This document shows, piece after piece, positions 17,569 to 26,931 of a DNA stretch of 64,000 nt. Within the stretch, counting starts at the first letter, position 1, and every line of letters begins with the position of its first letter. The stretch is from a virus: IMG/VR virus record IMGVR_UViG_3300010371_000030, positions 41,833 through 105,832 of that record. One strand, written 5' to 3'. The notes under the pieces were generated by a model. It was not told the DNA's origin. It saw nothing but the letters and a program-made list of their open reading frames with translations, and did not search any database. A program made the position numbers and the translations under genes.

Positions 17569-17978
17569 GTGCCTCGGACGGGTTGGCGATCCTTGAAGAA
17601 TGCCTTGACCATGGCCGCTCCGAACGCACTGGGATAGTGCGCCATCGGCTCCAGCCGGGCGATGTACACCTCGCGCGTCACCATGTTGGGCCCATCCCCG
17701 AAGGTGACAAAACGATCGTCAATGTGTAGGGTGATGTTCAGGAAGCGCAGATCCAGCGTACGAAAGACCACATAGCCGTCGGAATCGTCCTGCGTACCAA
17801 TACGAGTGATGTCCAGACCGGCTTCCGTTCCCCAGAACACCTGTCCTTGGCAGTAGACCGTGTCGCCGAACGTCCCGCCCTGGACGGGCTCCCGATAGCC
17901 AGGATCTTCCTCGGCCACGCCCCTCTGAAAGGACTGGATGCCAATTCGGACGGGGTGCTGAAGGTTGGGCGAGGTCAT
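17565..17978 (-). CDS. Head-tail joining/neck protein candidate
   Basis: A 137-residue beta-rich protein (TFGDTVYCQGQVFWGTEAGL, FRTLDLRFLNITLHIDDRF). The ATG chosen overlaps the previous stop as ATGA; a longer start would overrun that gene by 99 bases. Its place between connector and completion genes suggests a minor neck or stopper protein. No family recognised. Confidence 0.6.
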   Translation of the reverse strand: MTSPNLQHPVRIGIQSFQRGVAEEDPGYREPVQGGTFGDTVYCQGQVFWGTEAGLDITRIGTQDDSDGYVVFRTLDLRFLNITLHIDDRFVTFGDGPNMVTREVYIARLEPMAHYPSAFGAAMVKAFFKDRQPVRGT

Positions 17979-18772
17979 CGGATGTAACTGACGTTGGCTG
18001 GCGCGGCCATCGCGATGGGCGAACGGTAAGCCTTCATCGTGAGGAGCACCTCTGGATTGTTCGTCCACCCGGCCCATGCCGACGGCCGGACAGTCTTGGT
18101 GTTCCCACCGGCGAGCACATACTTGATGTAGTGCCCATCGGTCCCTTCCTCCTGGATGTTCCCGAGCACCGGAGGAAGGGGCGGAGCGGGGCTGGCCGGA
18201 TTCACGTACACCGGGGTGAGCAGTTTCTCCAGCGTCAGAAGCAGCATCGCACGCTTGATGGGCTCGGGCACAGAGCCGTCCGGCTCTGTGTAGCCGAAGG
18301 TGCCATTGACCACCTGGTTCTGACGCCCTTTGCGGAACAGCATCCGACCAATCTGCATCGGCGCGACATAGATGTCCATGTCGCCGTGCCTATTGTCGAG
18401 CAGCTTGATCCGCGGGTTGTCCCGGTCTGCAGGGTTGTTGTACACTCGATAGTACATGCGATCCAGCGGGCATTCGCCCGGCACGTCCCACATCGAGTTG
18501 AGCCAGAGTTGGTCGACAGAGATGATCGCGACGGGCAGATGAAGCGCGTCGCTGTCAGTCCCATCGAACACCATCTGAAGTCGCTGTGGATAGAACCACT
18601 GGCGAGTCGCGCGCTCGATGTACGCCTGCGCCAGGCGAATGGCGCCCACGATCTGTAGGTCGGTGACCGTGTCCGGAATGCCCACCGCCCGTACATCCGA
18701 CACATCGATGTACGGGAGCGGCGGAAACGGCGCCGGAGCGGGCGGAGGGAACGGAGGCACGGACCCGCTCAT
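17975..18772 (-). CDS. Head-tail connector (gp6-like)
   Basis: A 265-residue protein with a Pro-rich N-terminal 20 residues, then the connector helix pattern VTDLQIVGAIRLAQAYIERA at ~36-55. This is followed by a RQWFYPQRLQMVFDG strand typical of HK97 gp6/SPP1 gp15-like adaptors that sit under the portal. A second alpha/beta segment ends in a basic region. Good match of motif and position. Confidence 0.65.
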   Translation of the reverse strand: MSGSVPPFPPPAPAPFPPLPYIDVSDVRAVGIPDTVTDLQIVGAIRLAQAYIERATRQWFYPQRLQMVFDGTDSDALHLPVAIISVDQLWLNSMWDVPGECPLDRMYYRVYNNPADRDNPRIKLLDNRHGDMDIYVAPMQIGRMLFRKGRQNQVVNGTFGYTEPDGSVPEPIKRAMLLLTLEKLLTPVYVNPASPAPPLPPVLGNIQEEGTDGHYIKYVLAGGNTKTVRPSAWAGWTNNPEVLLTMKAYRSPIAMAAPANVSYIR

Positions 18773-18775
18773 GGC

Positions 18776-19246
18776 TCAGAGCACTCCGGACCAGAGCGCC
18801 TTGTTCACCGGCGCCCAACCATCGGCGCCCTGCCCCGGGATGGGCTCCGCGTGCTCCACGGGGCCGCCTTTGCCCTTGTACGTCTTGACGACCGTCTTGG
18901 GCTTGTAAGTGGTGACGCGCTGAACTTCGGACAGGTTGCTGAAGGTGAACACGCCCGTTTCGGCGTCGCGTTCGTACGTAGCGGCGCTGTACATGTACTT
19001 GCCGCGCTTGTCCTCGCTCTTGCTGTAGATGTTGACGCTGAGGACGACCACCGAGGAATACACGTCCACCACGTACGCGTAATCCTGCTTGGGGTCCATC
19101 TTCAGCTGATCCATCACCCACTTGCGCGCGGCGTCGCTCATCGCCTGGGTGAAGTCCTGAACGGACTCCCCTGTCACGAGCGGGATGTTGGCCTTGTGGA
19201 CCACCGTCTCGTGCGTTACCTGCTTCTGTTCACCTTGGTCGCTCAT
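18776..19246 (-). CDS. Head-cluster protein with conserved C-terminal peptide
   Basis: A 156-residue alpha/beta protein of unknown function. Its last 11 residues, PVNKALWSGVL, nearly repeat the last residues of the scaffold-like protein encoded 3 kb away (PVKKSLWNGVL). This suggests both tails bind the same partner in the prohead. The body includes YAYVVDVYSSVVVLSVNIYS. It lies between small head genes and the connector. Confidence 0.65.
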   Translation of the reverse strand: MSDQGEQKQVTHETVVHKANIPLVTGESVQDFTQAMSDAARKWVMDQLKMDPKQDYAYVVDVYSSVVVLSVNIYSKSEDKRGKYMYSAATYERDAETGVFTFSNLSEVQRVTTYKPKTVVKTYKGKGGPVEHAEPIPGQGADGWAPVNKALWSGVL

Positions 19247-19319
19247 GGTCGCTTCCCTTCGCTTGTCGATTGTCGCCTAAACAGTGGCGACGGACAAGCC
19301 GCGGAGCGCCGGGAGCGAG

Positions 19320-19658
19320 CTAGCGCGGGCGACCTACACGAGACATGGCGATGCGCATGGACGCGCAATTCTTGTGAGACATGACTACCAACTTGACGCC
19401 ATTGGCAACGATGGTCAATCGTTCGCCGCCGTTCTGCCCGACGTCAGGCGCTACACACTCCATCCGAATAGACGGGTGATCGAAGCCAACGGGGCGAATG
19501 ATGCTGGCTTGGTATCCGTGTGGTGACACCATCGTTACGGCCGTCAACGACAGCTGTACTTCAGAACGCGCGAGCTTTGGAAGCCACTCGCGCGCCTGAT
19601 CCTCGCTGGCTAGGTCGACCGCTACGGTGCGGCCATCGTCGTGGTGGAGCTTGAACAT
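19320..19658 (-). CDS. Small hypothetical protein in head cluster
   Basis: A 112-residue protein starting MFKLHHDDGRTVAVDLASED. The first half resembles short phage proteins that modify or sense a small domain (acidic/amphipathic helix followed by strands). No motif recognised. The ATG is 25 bases from the next upstream stop. Confidence 0.55.
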   Translation of the reverse strand: MFKLHHDDGRTVAVDLASEDQAREWLPKLARSEVQLSLTAVTMVSPHGYQASIIRPVGFDHPSIRMECVAPDVGQNGGERLTIVANGVKLVVMSHKNCASMRIAMSRVGRPR

Positions 19659-19683
19659 CGCGCAACCGGATGCGCGCGGCGAG

Positions 19684-20241
19684 TCACTTCTTGTGGAACG
19701 GGTTGCCGTCCGACTTGGCCTCCGGCGCAGTCGGCGAAGCGGCGACCGGGGCAGGCGTCGAGACGGCCGGAGCGGGCTCGGGCTGCGCCGGAGGCGTGGC
19801 GGGAGCGACTGCGGTGGACTCGGGCTTGGCCGCGGCGGCCGGACCGCCGGACTGCGCCGGAGGCGTGGCGGGACGCACGATGTCGAGGATCACGACCTGC
19901 TTGGCCATGCCCGGCGCCTTCTGGAGCAGGTTCAGCTCGTCCTTGGTCACGGTGCGCGTGGAGTTGGGCTGAACGTGAAAGGCGCCAGTCCGCCCCTCCG
20001 CCCGCTTGATCTTCGCCGGCATCTCCACCTGGATCACCGGCGCCGTCGGGCGGAACTGGATGTGATACAGCTGGTCGGGCGTGTGGTCCGCGGCCACGCG
20101 CGACACGCGCTCCATCACCGGCCTGTGACGACCGCCGCCGCCGCTCATCGTGTAGGTTCCACCACCGCTCTCCTGTACGACGTCGACACCATCGACGCAC
20201 AGGACCGCACCCACCGCCACGCTGTTCACGTTCGCCGACAT
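19684..20241 (-). CDS. Head-cluster protein with Ala/Pro-rich tail
   Basis: A 185-residue protein. Residues 1-125 are a compact beta-rich domain (YHIQFRPTAPVIQVEMPAKI). Residues 125-175 are a Pro/Ala linker ending in SDGNPFHKK. It is six bases downstream of the acidic-linker gene. A decoration or head-fibre-type protein is possible. No family recognised. Confidence 0.6.
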   Translation of the reverse strand: MSANVNSVAVGAVLCVDGVDVVQESGGGTYTMSGGGGRHRPVMERVSRVAADHTPDQLYHIQFRPTAPVIQVEMPAKIKRAEGRTGAFHVQPNSTRTVTKDELNLLQKAPGMAKQVVILDIVRPATPPAQSGGPAAAAKPESTAVAPATPPAQPEPAPAVSTPAPVAASPTAPEAKSDGNPFHKK

Positions 20242-20247
20242 GGCCCC

Positions 20248-20781
20248 TCACTCCTCGGCCGGAGTCACCGCCGCCATCATGGCGTCGATGATGGCCGTCT
20301 TGGTCATGCTGAGGTTGATCTTGACGCCCATGGCGGGCAACCCGTCCGCCTGGGCTCGCTGGATGAGTTGGCTCTTGTTGAGCACTTCCAGCTCCGCGCG
20401 AGCGTACGACGGCAGCGCCGTGGGCTCGCCCTCCGTGGTCTCCTCGGCCGGCTCCTCGCCCTCGGACGCCTCGGGCTCTCCCTCGGCCGGCTCCTCGGAC
20501 TCGTCTGCTGCCTCGGTGCCACCCTCCTGCTCCTCGGAATCGGGCGCGGCTTCGTCGGCCTGCTCGACAGGCTCGGGCGCCTTCGTGCTGGCAGCGCGCG
20601 CGTCGAGGGAGCCCGACAGGATCGTGATCTCCACGCACCCACAGGACATGTAATGCCTGATCTCGGCGGGGTTGGCGGAGATGATGGACGAGCCCTTGAG
20701 GAGGGTGCGCCCATTGCTGGTGAACGACTGCGGGCCCGTCTCCTTGATCTGGATACGGGCGCTGAGAGGTGCATGTGCCAT
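20248..20781 (-). CDS. Head-cluster protein with acidic linker and SAP-like C-terminus
   Basis: A 177-residue protein. The N-terminal 60 residues are compact. Residues 65-120 are nearly all Glu/Ala/Pro/Ser (EEPAEGEPEASEGEEPAEE). The last 45 residues form a helix-extended-helix (LNKSQLIQRAQADGLPAMGV) similar to SAP/Rho-N folds that bind nucleic acid. Its ribosome site is GGAGATCAGCC-ATG, seen before several other genes. It follows the capsid gene after a stem-loop. Confidence 0.6.
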   Translation of the reverse strand: MAHAPLSARIQIKETGPQSFTSNGRTLLKGSSIISANPAEIRHYMSCGCVEITILSGSLDARAASTKAPEPVEQADEAAPDSEEQEGGTEAADESEEPAEGEPEASEGEEPAEETTEGEPTALPSYARAELEVLNKSQLIQRAQADGLPAMGVKINLSMTKTAIIDAMMAAVTPAEE

Positions 20782-20808
20782 GGCTGATCTCCCGGGGCGC
20801 TCGGGCGA

Positions 20809-20834
20809 CGCCCCGCCATTACGTCAGCGGGGCG
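20809..20834. repeat. Stem-loop after the major capsid gene
   Basis: CGCCCCGC and GCGGGGCG form an 8-bp stem with a 10-base loop, directly 3' of the capsid gene. There is no U-tract. It may moderate read-through or protect the capsid transcript end. Confidence 0.5.
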
Positions 20835-20853
20835 CCGTCGCGAGCAGCGGAGG

Positions 20854-22059
20854 CTACAGGTTGAGACCGATGTTGTGCCCGTAGGCCACGGCGTCGACTT
20901 CCTCCAGCTGGACGTCGACCTTGGTGGTGATGGCGTACTGGTTCACGCCCTTGAAGATGTCGCGATCCTTCTCGATGCGGACGTCGCGACCGATGCCGAT
21001 GATCATGTTGTCCTTGTGGGTCAGCATGATCGTCGGGTTGGACTGGTAGGTGACCTTGACGGTCGCCCCGCTGCTGATGCCGCCGCCGACGCGCGTGATG
21101 CCGCCGCCGCTGTAGTCCACCGTGTAGTCGGTGTTCTCCACGTACGGCGTGACGGGCGTGTTCCCGAGCGTCACGGGGGTGACGACCACGTTGGTCACGG
21201 GCCCGTGGAGGAGCGACGTCTTGGTGGTGCCGGTGAGGACGATGTGCTCCACGACGATGGGCTGGAGCGCCCAGAGCGGGACGGGCACCGCCTTGATCCC
21301 GAACGGGCCCTGGAGCTGATCGGGCGTCTGGGTGGCCGCGTCGTCACCGAGCTTGCCGATGCGCGTGGCCATCTTCTCCTGGAACATCTGCCACAGGTCC
21401 GGGCTGAGGAACCAGCGCAGGTCCTGGAGGCGCCGACGGAACTTGATCGGCAGAGCGCGCATGATCTTGCCGAACACGCTCAGACCGATGTTCTGCCCCT
21501 GGAGGTCCACGACGTGGCCGGTCATGCCCAGCTTCTGCCAACCGTCGACCAGCGCCACGAAGGTGTCCTTGATGTAGCGCGTGCTGTCGCCGCCGTCGAT
21601 GAGGTCGGACTCCAGGCGAGCGGGACCGAGCTTGTTGCCGGTGATGTACTGCTCCTCCAGGTCGTTGCCCGTCTGGGTCGCCATGAGGCGCACGATGGTG
21701 TCTTCGACATCGCGCCCCTCGATGTTGATCTCCGCGAAGATGTCGCTGATCTCGAAAGGCGTCATGACCTCGTGCGGCTGGAGGGTCACCTTGGAGGTGG
21801 TGACGCCGCGACGGCGGCGCGGATCGGTCGCCTCCGACTTGGCCATGGCCGCGCGCTTCCCGACGCCGATCTTGTCGATCTCCAACGTCTCGTTGGTGAA
21901 GCGCACCACGCGAGCGTTGTTGCGAAGGATGGTGATGTCGATGACGTAATCGATGAACTTGTTCGACTGCGCCGGGTTGAGCTTGCCTGCCGTGGCCAGC
22001 GCGTCGGTGGTGACCACCGCCTTGTTGACCAACTCTTCGTTCGTGACGCCCGTGCTCAT
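20854..22059 (-). CDS. Major capsid protein
   Basis: A 401-residue HK97-fold capsid protein of the P2 gpN-like group. Typical parts are an N-terminal helix (SNKFIDYVIDITILRNNARV), the conserved EIDKIGVGKRAAMAKSEATD segment, an E-loop/P-domain stretch (EVMTPFEISDIFAEINIEGR) and RWFLSPDLWQMF near 225. A C-terminal insertion (~270-340) is Thr/Gly-rich and resembles an added beta domain. The preceding scaffold-like and protease genes complete the head module. Confidence 0.85.
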   Translation of the reverse strand: MSTGVTNEELVNKAVVTTDALATAGKLNPAQSNKFIDYVIDITILRNNARVVRFTNETLEIDKIGVGKRAAMAKSEATDPRRRRGVTTSKVTLQPHEVMTPFEISDIFAEINIEGRDVEDTIVRLMATQTGNDLEEQYITGNKLGPARLESDLIDGGDSTRYIKDTFVALVDGWQKLGMTGHVVDLQGQNIGLSVFGKIMRALPIKFRRRLQDLRWFLSPDLWQMFQEKMATRIGKLGDDAATQTPDQLQGPFGIKAVPVPLWALQPIVVEHIVLTGTTKTSLLHGPVTNVVVTPVTLGNTPVTPYVENTDYTVDYSGGGITRVGGGISSGATVKVTYQSNPTIMLTHKDNMIIGIGRDVRIEKDRDIFKGVNQYAITTKVDVQLEEVDAVAYGHNIGLNL

Positions 22060-22114
22060 GATCGGTCTCTCCTCTTGGTCTATCGTCCTGTGTCCGCTGC
22101 CCCTGGTCGCCTGG

Positions 22115-23074
22115 TTACAGGACGCCGTTCCAGAGGGACTTCTTCACCGGCGTGGCGCCGCCCTCGCCTCCGCCCTCGGAGTTGCCGGCGGGGCGCGCCT
22201 TCTTGACGTCGGCCACCTCGCCTTCGATCTTGGCGAAGCGCGGCTCCAGCCCCTTGGCGACCGCCGCGGCGATGTCCTCGACGGTGAGGCTCTTGGACAC
22301 CTCCATGCCGCCCGGAGCCGGCTTGATCTCGCTGGGGGTCGACACCGAGGTGGCATTGGGCAAGTTCTTGCCCGGACCGCCCGCGATGGGGTGGTCGCTG
22401 TCCGGGGCGACGTCGCCCACCAGCTCGTCCAGGAGCCCCTTGAGCGCCTTGAGCTTGCCCACGCGCTCGGGCGTCATGTGCTTGGCCTTGACGATGAGCG
22501 CAGCGAGACCATCCATGGTGAGCGGCGCGTCGCCCTCGTCGCCCTTCTTGGTCTTGGCCTCTTTGGTGTCCTTGTTCTTGGCGCCGTCCACGTCGGTCGC
22601 CGCGCCGCCCGGCCCGGAGCCCGCGTTGGGCTTCTTGTTCGGCTTGGGCGCGGTCTCCTCGTCCGTCTCGTTGGGCGACACGAGCTTCATCGTGAGGTCC
22701 ACGCCGGACTTCTTGGCCTTCTCCTCCATGTCCTTCATCTGCTCGTCGGACATGCCCGCGGCCTTGAGGAACGCCTTGAGCGTCGTGCCCTTGGACTTGT
22801 CGACGTTGACCGTGTCCGGAGGCGAGACGCCGGCCAGCGCCGCGACGTTGGCGACGATGGCGGTGACCTCCTTGAGGATGTCGACCGTTGCATCGCCACC
22901 GCCTGCCGCCTTGACCACGACCTTCTCCGTGCCCTGTTCCTGGGTGCCCATCTCTGCCTCCGTCTGGCCCTTGTCTTTGGTGACGAGCCATTCCTGTTCA
23001 TTGGCTGGCTCGCCAACCAGGCTCACCTCGCCCACCGCGAGCTTCAAGAATCGCCTGGCTGCTTTCTCGCTCAT
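22115..23074 (-). CDS. Scaffold-like head protein with conserved C-terminal peptide
   Basis: A 319-residue charged protein between the protease and the capsid gene, the usual place for a scaffold. It starts with LKLAVGEVSLVGEPANEQEW, a segment related to the N-terminal pattern of XkdF/prohead-protease proteins ('VSLV..PAN...'). The long middle is Lys/Glu/Gly/Pro-rich with short helices. It ends in PVKKSLWNGVL, shared with another head-cluster protein. Overlaps the protease gene by ATGA. Confidence 0.6.
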   Translation of the reverse strand: MSEKAARRFLKLAVGEVSLVGEPANEQEWLVTKDKGQTEAEMGTQEQGTEKVVVKAAGGGDATVDILKEVTAIVANVAALAGVSPPDTVNVDKSKGTTLKAFLKAAGMSDEQMKDMEEKAKKSGVDLTMKLVSPNETDEETAPKPNKKPNAGSGPGGAATDVDGAKNKDTKEAKTKKGDEGDAPLTMDGLAALIVKAKHMTPERVGKLKALKGLLDELVGDVAPDSDHPIAGGPGKNLPNATSVSTPSEIKPAPGGMEVSKSLTVEDIAAAVAKGLEPRFAKIEGEVADVKKARPAGNSEGGGEGGATPVKKSLWNGVL

Positions 23075-23901
23075 AGAAGTTGCGTCCCGTTGGTGCCCGC
23101 GTTGGATGCATCGGCGGGCAGCTTCTTGACCGTCGCCTTACCACCGATGCTGAAGCCCTTGATCTTGCCAGCCTTGACCAGTTTCCACACCGCGGCGTCG
23201 AGCACCTTGACCGTCATGATCCAGGAGCCAGCCTTGATCTGTGTCGTTCCGATGGTCAGGTCCAGAGGTGCGATCCAACTCTCCACGAGCGCGAATCGCC
23301 CCTGCCAATTCTTGAAGTCCTTGTGCTGGAAGCCGAGTTTGGTGACGACGTTGTAGCCCGCCACGAAGGCATGGGCCGCCTCCTGGATGACATCCGCGTC
23401 ATAGATGTCAGCTTGGGCGTCGGTTTTCTCCGGGGCGAGGACCAGCCCCGTGACCAGCTGTTTTTCGTCGTTGGACTTGATGATACTGACGTCCAGAACG
23501 ACATCCACGCTCTTAGTTGTGGCAGCCTCGCTCTCCCGGATGGCGTTCTCCTGGTCGATGGCGCCTTGTTTGGAGTCGTGCTTGCCGAGCACGCGCGAAC
23601 CGTCTTGGGTGTACAGCACCCACTTGTCGCCTTCGTGCTTGATGTGCTTGGTCACCGCGTCGGCGCCGTCGTCGGCCGGCTCGCCCCATGGCTCGTCGCA
23701 CTTACACGTCCCCGCATCGGACTTGGCACAGTCGCACTTCTTGGTCGGCGGGTTGACCCCGGAGGCGCCCATGCCCTGCTTGGGCAGCAGCTTGCCAGCC
23801 TCGGCCAGCGAATCCGACGTGGCTCCACCGCCCTTCGTGATATCCACGATGCGTAGGAGTCCGCCGACGATGTTCTGGTACAGGGTTTCCGCCGTCTCCA
23901 C
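23071..23901 (-). CDS. Prohead protease, XkdF-like
   Basis: A 276-residue protein with the XkdF-like putative serine protease region at ~135-255. Diagnostic pieces are KQLVTGLVLAPEKTDAQADI, FVAGYNVVTKLGFQHKDF with a candidate catalytic His, VESWIAPLD with a candidate Ser, and GKIKGFSIGG. The N-terminal 60 residues carry a Cys cluster (CDCAKSDAGTCKCDEP) that may bind metal. Residues 80-125 (KWVLYTQDGSRVLGKHDS) resemble a small phage-associated domain. It probably cleaves the scaffold and capsid during maturation. Confidence 0.75.
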   Translation of the reverse strand: METAETLYQNIVGGLLRIVDITKGGGATSDSLAEAGKLLPKQGMGASGVNPPTKKCDCAKSDAGTCKCDEPWGEPADDGADAVTKHIKHEGDKWVLYTQDGSRVLGKHDSKQGAIDQENAIRESEAATTKSVDVVLDVSIIKSNDEKQLVTGLVLAPEKTDAQADIYDADVIQEAAHAFVAGYNVVTKLGFQHKDFKNWQGRFALVESWIAPLDLTIGTTQIKAGSWIMTVKVLDAAVWKLVKAGKIKGFSIGGKATVKKLPADASNAGTNGTQLL

Positions 23902-23935: not shown

Positions 23936-25015
23936 CTAGTCGTCGGCCAGATCTGCGTACGTCGTATCAGAGGCGATGTCCACGGTCGACCGGCAGCGGA
24001 AGTGGTACGGTGGAAGTGCCAACCCTTTGTCCGCCAACGCCTTGGACCCGCCCTTGGCCCGGATGGCGCTCATCTTCGCGCTTGATACCCACGGATGGGC
24101 GGCGCGTACTTCGTCGGGCGTCTTGGCCGCTCGGAGCGCCGCCATCTGATTCACACCATCCTGGACGGCGAACGTCGTGCCATTCATGTCCTCACAGAAT
24201 GGCGTCGTGCGACTGTCCATTGGGTTGACAATCTCATACGTCGTCACCTTGATACGTGCGAACGATTCCAGCTGCCCCTGAACACGAGCGTTCGTAACAG
24301 AGTTGGCCGCCAACCCCTCAAAGTAATCCTCGTCTGTACCGCGCCAGCCACCGGGAGCGAAGACACCCTTGAGCTTCTGCTCCACGATGTCTTGAACCAG
24401 CTTACCGGCCGCCTGCCTTCCAAGTCCTTCCAGGAGGGCTTCGCCCACGCCTTCCTTGATGGCCGCGGCGACGTTCTCACCGTAATGCTCGCCAATCCAG
24501 AGCATCTCCTGATTCTGTAGAGCCTCGATGGCGCGCTTGTCTTGGAGATCAAACGACATCTCCAGATTGGCGTCCGGCAACGGCTTCTTGGCCGCTTTAG
24601 CCACCTTGGTCTCGGGCAGAACGTACTGGAGGGAGGCGGACGTCTTGCCCGTGGCCTTCTTGAATCCGGCGATGCGGGCAAGTCTGTACGTCTTGGCGAG
24701 CGACTGTACGTACACCTCCTGTACGTCGCGCGGCCACTTGTCCATCACGGCGTTCACCCGTGACGATGCTTGCGCCCGGGAGCCTCCGCCGATGATGACA
24801 GACTTCGCGGCCAGCGCGGCTTCCTTGGAACGGATTCGCCACTTGGCGAGCAGATACTCACGAAGGCGTTGTTCACCACGAGCGATTCGGGCCACCTCCG
24901 AGATGGCCAGCGCCTTGGCGACCAGCTCGTCTGATCGCTCCACATAGGCGTGTACGATGTCGATGTGCTTGGAACCGCACTCGCACACCAAACGTTCGCG
25001 CACATCCATGGTCAT
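23936..25015 (-). CDS. Phage head morphogenesis protein (SPP1 gp7/Mu gpF-like)
   Basis: A 359-residue minor head protein, normally bound to the portal. The C-terminal family motif is clear: EIVNPMDSRTTPFCEDMNGT near 255 and LPPYHFRCRSTVD near 335. An N-terminal CECGSKH may bind metal. Overlaps the portal gene by ATGA. Confidence 0.85.
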   Translation of the reverse strand: MTMDVRERLVCECGSKHIDIVHAYVERSDELVAKALAISEVARIARGEQRLREYLLAKWRIRSKEAALAAKSVIIGGGSRAQASSRVNAVMDKWPRDVQEVYVQSLAKTYRLARIAGFKKATGKTSASLQYVLPETKVAKAAKKPLPDANLEMSFDLQDKRAIEALQNQEMLWIGEHYGENVAAAIKEGVGEALLEGLGRQAAGKLVQDIVEQKLKGVFAPGGWRGTDEDYFEGLAANSVTNARVQGQLESFARIKVTTYEIVNPMDSRTTPFCEDMNGTTFAVQDGVNQMAALRAAKTPDEVRAAHPWVSSAKMSAIRAKGGSKALADKGLALPPYHFRCRSTVDIASDTTYADLADD

Positions 25016-26931
25016 GCCGCCTTGGCTTGCCTACGAAACAGATCTTCCACCACGCCCTGGAGCGTCAGAAGCTTCTTGGCAACAGACACGTTGTCTTCGT
25101 CGTCGCCGATGACCAACGACAGATCGTCGCCCAGAATCCCCAGCGCCTTCAGCGCGGTGACTTGTTGCCCAGGCTCTGAAGGATCAGCTTCGTTCTTGAC
25201 CGCCTGTGCCATAGTGAGACTGAACGGAACATCGGCCGGGAAGGCATCCGGGAACGGCGGAAGGTCCTGCCCCAGAATCTCTTCCAGCGCCTGACGGGCG
25301 ATACGGGGCGTCATGCCGCCGGTCTTCTCGGCGCCAGCCACGATCTTCACGAGCGCCATGTTGTCGGTCGTGTTGGGCGTGTTCGACTTGAACTGATGGA
25401 AGACCACGCCCATCTCCGGGAAGATGTCCCGGTTCATCATGTCGTCGATGAGCGCGCGCTCCGGCGAGAACACCTGCTCATCGCCCAGCGAGCGCGACGC
25501 CTGGATGGTCGCATAGCTGTAGTCCTGGCTCACGCCGATGAACGCCGGAGGGAGCCGGAACGCCCGGCGAACGCGCTCCGCGTTCTTTTCACGGTACGTG
25601 GTGAATAGCTCATCCGTGCGTTGCGTCTTGACCAGTTCTTTGGCGTCGATCTTCACCTGCCCACCGTCCACGCCGGTGTCCGTCTCGAATGGCTCGCCCT
25701 CCATGATGATGAACTTGGAGTAATTGTCGCTGCCCTGGATGTTCGAGTCGGTGAACGACATCAGGCGATCGATGGTGCCCTGTGTCAGCACGCCGTTGGA
25801 CACCATGATGAGCATCGACGGGATGTTGTTGTTCCTGAACGTGACGTAATTGATCTCCTCGGCCGCCCGGTCGCCAAAGATGGAGAGCAGGTTGCCGATG
25901 TATCGAGGGAGACCATACGGTGTACGGGCGCTGTACAACTTCAGATGGATGATCTCGGTGGCGGGCTTGCGCCCCGCCGGCAGCGGAGGGTACTTGTCGC
26001 CCTTCGGGTCCATGGTTCCATCGGGCCATTTGGCAAACTCGCCCGTCTCACGGTCCATGTTCCTCGGATCCAGGTGCTCCTTGAACCACCTGATCCGGTA
26101 TCCCATCGTCGTGAAGCGCAGGTTAGACGCGGGCCAGACGGCGCGCGTCTGCACGAACGGCCGAAAGCGCCGCCACTCCTTGCGCTTCTTTGCCACCACG
26201 CTGCCATCGAGCTGCAGCTCCAACACAGGACGGTCCACCAGCATCTCATCGAGGTCCAGAATGCCCATCCTCATCTGATACGACGGGATGTGTACGAATC
26301 CGACGATGTTGCCATCAACGTCCCGCAGAACTTCGATGTAGGCGTTGCCCGTCGCTTCCAAGTCGCGCCGGACGCGGCGGCGAAACGCGGTGAATGACTC
26401 CCGCGTGGCGTACGTGAAGAAGTTGGTGAGCATGACGCGCTCGGCATCCGCCTGCTTGCCCAGGTCGCCCGCGCCTTCCGCGTTGCCTTTCGCGTCCATC
26501 TTCAGACGCGACACGTAGCGATGCCCCGTCGCTTCGCAGTTGACCTCCATCGCCTCGATACACTGTCCCAGCTCGGAGTTGTGCTCCACGAGCATAGTCA
26601 GCGTCAGCATGTCAAACGGAGGCTCGATGATCTTGCCGTTGAGAGCCAGTCCGCTCCAAGGATCTTCGGGCAGCACGTTGGACGGCTCCGGGGTGGCCGC
26701 CTTGGTGACGCTCGTCTCCTCCACCATCGAGCGCTCGGCATCGGAGCCCGCCCCGCCCGGCTTACGCTTGACGACATCGATGATCCGAACGCGCACTTGG
26801 CGCACCGCGTCCTGATTGGTCGCGTTGGCCCGAAGAGTTGGACCGCTCGTTTGACCCGGCACCTCCAGGTCAATCGTTTTGTCCTTGATGACCGTAGTCT
26901 CGCTGGCGCCCTTGCTCTTGTCGTCGCTCAT
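25012..26931 (-). CDS. Portal protein
   Basis: A 639-residue portal of the PBSX/Mu-like group. Indicators are MLVEHNSELGQCIEAMEVNC near 115, the NAYIEVLRDVDGNIVGFVHI strand near 205, YGLPRYIGNLLSIFGDRAAE near 340, and RRAFRLPPAFIGVSQDYSYA near 455. The N-terminal 100 residues are a charged extension. It forms the dodecameric DNA channel at one capsid vertex. The start codon shares one base with the terminase stop. Confidence 0.9.
   Translation of the reverse strand: MSDDKSKGASETTVIKDKTIDLEVPGQTSGPTLRANATNQDAVRQVRVRIIDVVKRKPGGAGSDAERSMVEETSVTKAATPEPSNVLPEDPWSGLALNGKIIEPPFDMLTLTMLVEHNSELGQCIEAMEVNCEATGHRYVSRLKMDAKGNAEGAGDLGKQADAERVMLTNFFTYATRESFTAFRRRVRRDLEATGNAYIEVLRDVDGNIVGFVHIPSYQMRMGILDLDEMLVDRPVLELQLDGSVVAKKRKEWRRFRPFVQTRAVWPASNLRFTTMGYRIRWFKEHLDPRNMDRETGEFAKWPDGTMDPKGDKYPPLPAGRKPATEIIHLKLYSARTPYGLPRYIGNLLSIFGDRAAEEINYVTFRNNNIPSMLIMVSNGVLTQGTIDRLMSFTDSNIQGSDNYSKFIIMEGEPFETDTGVDGGQVKIDAKELVKTQRTDELFTTYREKNAERVRRAFRLPPAFIGVSQDYSYATIQASRSLGDEQVFSPERALIDDMMNRDIFPEMGVVFHQFKSNTPNTTDNMALVKIVAGAEKTGGMTPRIARQALEEILGQDLPPFPDAFPADVPFSLTMAQAVKNEADPSEPGQQVTALKALGILGDDLSLVIGDDEDNVSVAKKLLTLQGVVEDLFRRQAKAA

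Follow-up and report, generated by a model that had tools for sequence, protein, structure and literature searches.

Why do two otherwise unrelated proteins encoded in one phage head gene cluster end in the same tryptophan (Trp)-containing peptide? The route by which internal proteins get into phage heads is known for few phages, T4 above all, and the question is raised here by a stretch of 64,000 nucleotides (the window) of the 105.8-kb IMG/VR virus record IMGVR_UViG_3300010371_000030, in which a scaffold-like protein and a 156-residue protein (p156) share such a tail. An earlier note on this DNA had proposed that the shared end docks both proteins on one partner (capsid, portal or protease) or serves as a common tag for recruitment into the prohead. 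Comparing the ends of related proteins, we propose, with a probability of roughly 0.72, that in phages whose capsid is of the XkdG type and has the HK97 fold the scaffold docks on the coat through this tail, and that the same peptide may be reused as a C-terminal prohead-loading signal.

Two head-cluster proteins of the window share a C-terminal tail

The ends that had been read on the two proteins, PVKKSLWNGVL on the scaffold-like protein and PVNKALWSGVL on p156, were recovered from minus-strand open reading frames, whose translations close with ...GGATPVKKSLWNGVL and ...DGWAPVNKALWSGVL, respectively. The two proteins had also been described as unrelated elsewhere, and BLAST of one against the other indeed aligned the tail alone (11 residues, 73% identity). 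When the C-termini of the 82 minus-strand gene calls of the window were compared, this pair, identical at 8 of 11 residues, ranked at the top of 3,321 pairs (runners-up 7, 6 and 5), where a composition model expects 1.3e-4 pairs with at least 8 identities. The DNA coding for the two tails is identical at 25 of 33 positions, and the codons for G (GGC/GGA), V (GTC/GTG) and L (CTG/CTC) differ synonymously, so the pair does not stem from a recent DNA duplication. A pattern search of the whole 105.8-kb record found no third tail of this type.

The tail on p156 homologues and scaffolds

Relatives of the capsid protein were gathered from viral contigs and genomes (L-numbers label their loci). Genes on contigs were called by a simple script and the contigs are partly redundant; counts refer to distinct sequences. 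No family for p156 was found in Pfam, NCBIfam or PHROGs, and a single-sequence search of viral contigs and a phage collection returned no relatives; the DNA pattern KS[LF]WxGV[LF]-TGA likewise had no match in viral contigs, its codon choice being too strict. Homologues were reached via capsid-anchored loci and then a homologue alignment, which gave 24 distinct closed sequences in loci with related capsids, their genes lying mostly 1.1-1.6 kb, and at times 3-8 kb, after the capsid gene. The tail is present on 20 of these 24 (KSLWNGVL, KSFWTGVI, KALWNGVL and KSFWSGVL, among others). With the p156 sequences aligned from the right, the highest identity, 0.73, falls among the last 8 residues, and the mean over the 28 residues before position 12 is 0.09. 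The AlphaFold2 model of p156 shows a compact domain of one helix and four strands, mostly with a predicted local distance difference test score >90, the rest of the chain being predicted as disordered. Foldseek found no PDB or viral match to this model at E<=0.001, and the best viral match, a prohead protease at 9e-3, superposed poorly and was not taken as proof. Two remote p156-domain proteins (L008, L026), encoded upstream near MuF, also have the tail at their end.

On the scaffold side, the tail (consensus [KR]xx[LFI]WxG[VI]L) occurs at or near the C-terminus of nearly all scaffolds that accompany this XkdG-type capsid. Among 149 distinct pre-capsid proteins, misassigned genes included, 125 have a tail in their last 24 residues. 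Scaffold ends in relatives include EKSFWSGIL, KKSIWAGIL, KKSLWSGVL and NQGLWNGLL; in distant groups, up to about ten residues follow the motif (KKSKWNGSFLGSVNEIFN; KGSKWGGHFLSVSDIK). In Bacillus PBP180, where XkdF protease and scaffold are fused, the chain closes with TKPIWDGLL, and Streptomyces phages have the tail KGSKWGGHFL. Matches to the C-terminal end of phrog_3017, a protease-scaffold family, were found for scaffold ends of relatives. Co-occurrence of the tail in related phages, which the earlier note had put forward as a check, is borne out on both proteins, homologues without it being confined, for p156, to 2 of the 24.

In one capsid subgroup (L003-L006, L095), the scaffold end GSFSGVLGL replaces the Trp tail. 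Judged by these ends, different capsid clades seem to have different forms of the motif, F standing for W.

Further tailed proteins and module shuffling

A screen of gene ends yielded small proteins of 87-100 residues with the same tail, here called PNEHAAR proteins, and a dedicated scan found it in 17 of 18 distinct standalone forms. A zinc-ribbon protein of 76 residues, encoded after the tail sheath gene in L202 (15187-15417) and in L203, ends in KKGFWDGVI; in the same genome the scaffold ends in KKEFWDGVI and the PNEHAAR protein in EKTFWDGVI, so that the hexapeptide FWDGVI is common to all three. By this end, the zinc-ribbon protein is a fourth type of tailed protein. Among 2,533 other genes, chance-like W-type tails were seen only in L009 and L012, and the remaining W-type matches belonged to the remote p156-domain proteins (L008, L026), a misassigned scaffold (L123) and a zinc-ribbon protein.

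One further candidate was set aside. A 260-residue protein of Streptomyces-phage-like relatives (L031, L034, L060 and similar), encoded about 2.8 kb after the capsid gene, has a conserved and faintly tail-like AFGGAL end; it is the product of a different gene, and its end has no Trp. Separately, similarity to the plant BRX domain PF08381 was seen for the PNEHAAR module (L158:1581-1847 and L259:3780-5552, the latter above the Pfam cut-off at E 2e-6).

The stretch shared within the window is only 11 residues long, in keeping with a chance likeness or with a recent local duplication of a gene end. The small number of such pairs expected by composition, the synonymous codon differences and the retention of the tail on homologues of p156 and on PNEHAAR proteins led us to reject both, and we regard their probability as negligible.

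Throughout the p156 family the tail stays last in every arrangement, whereas linker and module order vary. A second module, NDLPDAAF, follows the p156 domain in L018, L100, L150 and L158 and precedes it in L131, and the PNEHAAR module follows the domain in L124 and precedes it in L017; the inserted modules occupy the position of the p156 linker. Phages without the XkdG capsid have the PNEHAAR module for the most part either joined to S78-type proteases (phrog_1028, phrog_38466) or inside protease-capsid polyproteins (S-CBS1, CRP-831), in either case with no tail. Similarly, a p156-like domain and NDLPDAAF lie within a protein of THSA-485A that matches the S78 protease. Because the tailless forms are mostly fused to a protease or polyprotein, the p156 and PNEHAAR modules appear to belong to the prohead through one of two routes, fusion or the tail.

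Candidate partners of the tail

Each of the 13 PNEHAAR records with an XkdG capsid encodes a tailed protein that stands alone, except L207, where a PNEHAAR-p156 fusion ends in a truncated tail, and none of the records with a tailless fused PNEHAAR has this capsid (Fisher's test, 2.5e-5, with short contigs counted against the hypothesis); the tailed PNEHAAR records without a capsid match are short contigs. Two phages, Limnohabitans DC31 and Curvibacter P26059A, combine an XkdF protease with a gpE-type capsid (PF03864), and the proteins at their scaffold position have no tail. Tails are also closer to the scaffold tail of their own genome than in shuffled pairs (p ~0.003; the tails of L201, for example, are SLWSGVLFN and SFWAGVLFD), in a comparison uncorrected for phylogeny. 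Since the tail tracks the XkdG-type capsid and not the protease, the capsid protein is indicated as its partner.

The same two phages bear on the possibility that the tail is a recognition or cleavage element of the prohead protease, by which scaffold and p156 would be processed alike. Such a role would suit the PBSX-type chain in which protease and scaffold are one protein ending in the tail (PBP180), and T4 targeting sequences are removed by the head protease (PMC7411985). Because the tail is absent in two XkdF-protease phages with a gpE-type capsid, we nevertheless disfavour the protease as docking partner; moreover, the conserved part lies at the extreme end, where cleavage would free only a few residues, and a protease element is very unlikely.

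Docking on the portal or another assembly-initiating protein, which would bring scaffold and p156 to the portal vertex, is improbable in our judgement. The tail sits on the abundant scaffold and tracks the capsid gene in every case examined, and genes of tailed proteins lie at many positions, up to 8 kb from the capsid gene; on the other hand, the p156 gene adjoins the head-tail adaptor gene, and PNEHAAR genes are often near portal or MuF genes. A scaffold-scaffold (core) contact, with p156-type proteins as additional core components, seems quite unlikely to us as well: scaffold bodies are highly variable, yet very distant scaffolds with nothing but the capsid type in common retain the tail. 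Such a contact would agree with the modules of tailed proteins found inside scaffold or protease polyproteins elsewhere (L021, THSA-485A), and T4 targeting sequences work via the precursor core (PMC3012670).

Several points weigh against the tail as a coat-docking and loading peptide. 1) The scaffold ends of the distant XkdG-type Lactococcus 28201, psiM2, phiH and Vibrio LV6 have no clear tail. 2) Among the p156 homologues, two have a truncated tail (KKTLWG, KREKSFWE; L155, L207 group) and two have none (L133, L163), the tail in L133 sitting on the PNEHAAR protein instead. 3) p156 is accessory, as many relatives lack it in the part of the locus that was fetched. 4) The sequence comparisons do not discriminate between portal and capsid as partners, and the portal keeps its small probability. 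Overall, the docking or recruitment proposed by the earlier note is strongly supported by the conservation of the tail in homologues, its recurrence on two more families, its fixed place amid shuffling and its association with one capsid type; of the partners then named, the protease has become unlikely.

Proposed mechanism of loading

In the reading that we prefer, scaffold tails would attach to the major capsid protein on its inner face during prohead assembly. p156 would present the same peptide, with the consensus [KR]xx[LF]WxG[VI]L at the chain end, on a flexible linker, as would PNEHAAR, zinc-ribbon and composite proteins in relatives; all of them would occupy a share of the scaffold's sites and become enclosed together with the scaffold. 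By analogy with T4 and P1, our guess is that the loaded domains are internal head proteins held with, and perhaps ejected with, the DNA. We give even odds to a broader, modular C-terminal loading code in a large group of tailed phages, by which any domain joined to the coat-binding peptide of the scaffold would be enclosed and phages would gather and swap sets of internal head proteins (p156, PNEHAAR, NDLPDAAF, zinc-ribbon), perhaps for ejection into the host.

Gene layout of the head module

The features of the locus are listed in Table 1. The head module is of the XkdF/XkdG (PBSX) type, with an S78_2 protease and an XkdG-type capsid protein gene after the scaffold gene, and the window's capsid query or its profiles recover the capsid proteins of PBSX-type phages, PBP180 among them. 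A search by sequence for a solved structure of a capsid relative found none. Three small genes separate the major capsid protein gene from the p156 gene.

Two side observations concern other parts of these proteins. The N-terminus of the scaffold (window 23000-23040) opens with the motif EVSLVGEPANEQEWLV, which also starts the phrog_3017 protease-scaffold profile and stays with the scaffold where the genes are split; an N-terminal EVSLVGEPAN motif is common to the scaffold and phrog_3017. Another small module on a prohead protease is seen in the N-terminal half of the window's enzyme, where residues 80-127 match phrog_3684, a family of unknown function.

Table 1 Features of the head gene cluster (positions in the window)
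Feature	Position	Strand	Remarks
Portal protein	25012..26931	-	PF04860 1.6e-17
MuF-like minor head protein	23936..25015	-	PF04233 slightly below cut-off; phrog_9907, phrog_115
Prohead protease, XkdF type (Peptidase_S78_2), itself without tail	23071..23901	-	PF14550 3e-30
Scaffold-like protein, 319 residues, ends in tail	22115..23074	-	Between XkdF protease and major capsid protein
Scaffold tail PVKKSLWNGVL	22118..22150	-	End of translated open reading frame
Major capsid protein, XkdG type, proposed tail partner	20854..22059	-	phrog_1623 3e-66; model with HK97 fold, best PDB match (Foldseek) SPO1 capsid, E 5e-13
p156, 156 residues, domain + linker + tail	18776..19246	-	Founder of a tailed protein family; gene adjoining connector on upstream side
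p156 alpha/beta domain, residues 18-115	18902..19195	-	AlphaFold2 model m5f1054ff5d79 and homologue alignment
p156 linker, residues 116-145, variable, predicted disordered	18812..18901	-	AlphaFold2 model and alignment
p156 tail PVNKALWSGVL	18779..18811	-	Second Trp (DGW) precedes, likewise in many homologues
Head-tail adaptor, immediately downstream of p156	17975..18772	-	phrog_442 3.8e-9

Comparison with known systems and significance

Short peptides that direct proteins into a shell are known from several systems. In T4, the capsid targeting sequence of the internal proteins IPI-III and Alt is the one conserved part of otherwise diverse proteins and directs them into the prohead (PMC3012670, PMC7411985). 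The tail of the window is similarly a short conserved peptide common to otherwise unrelated head-cluster proteins. The T4 sequence, however, lies at the N-terminus, acts on the core and is removed by cleavage, whereas the tail is always C-terminal and is also the end of the scaffold. A short N-terminal signal also sends the P1 head protein DarB, as well as a reporter, into the capsid (PMC9024508). Unlike the tail, it has no consensus in common with other head proteins or the scaffold.

The P22 scaffolding protein binds coat through its C-terminus, and only that part is needed (PMC9962691). That part is a helix-turn-helix, about 36 residues long, whose key residues are basic, in contrast to about 9 residues around a Trp here. 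To our knowledge, cargo fused to scaffold in P22 particles is engineered. PHROG 3017 and PBSX XkdF come closer in sequence, given the matches of relatives' scaffold ends to the profile and the tailed XkdF of PBP180 described above; they differ in being one protease-scaffold chain, whereas the window has two genes and carries the tail on another protein as well.

Encapsulin cargo-loading peptides consist of about 10 C-terminal residues, follow a variable flexible linker and bind the lumen of an HK97-fold shell (PMC8229669). p156, as modelled and aligned, has the same build, a folded domain followed by a variable flexible linker and a C-terminal peptide of about 10 residues, and the shell has the HK97 fold in both cases, with luminal binding proposed for the tail; the likeness is one of architecture. 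Scaffold, portal and genome are absent from encapsulins, which are bacterial nanocompartments, whereas genes for portal, protease, scaffold, MuF and tail proteins surround the p156 gene. A literature search found no description of this tail, most subscription papers being outside its reach. Loading signals as such are known; what would be new is one that is C-terminal, Trp-centred and common to the scaffold itself.

If the proposed mechanism is true, these phages would load cargo much as encapsulins do, with the tail of their own scaffold as the signal, and the tail would link phage heads with encapsulins through the same logic on the same fold. Engineered containers derived from phages could be loaded by means of such a short tag. 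A C-terminal tag that other proteins have in common with the scaffold would also provide a one-line sequence rule, testable in cultured phages of the XkdG-capsid group, to find internal head proteins in thousands of uncultured phages with this capsid.

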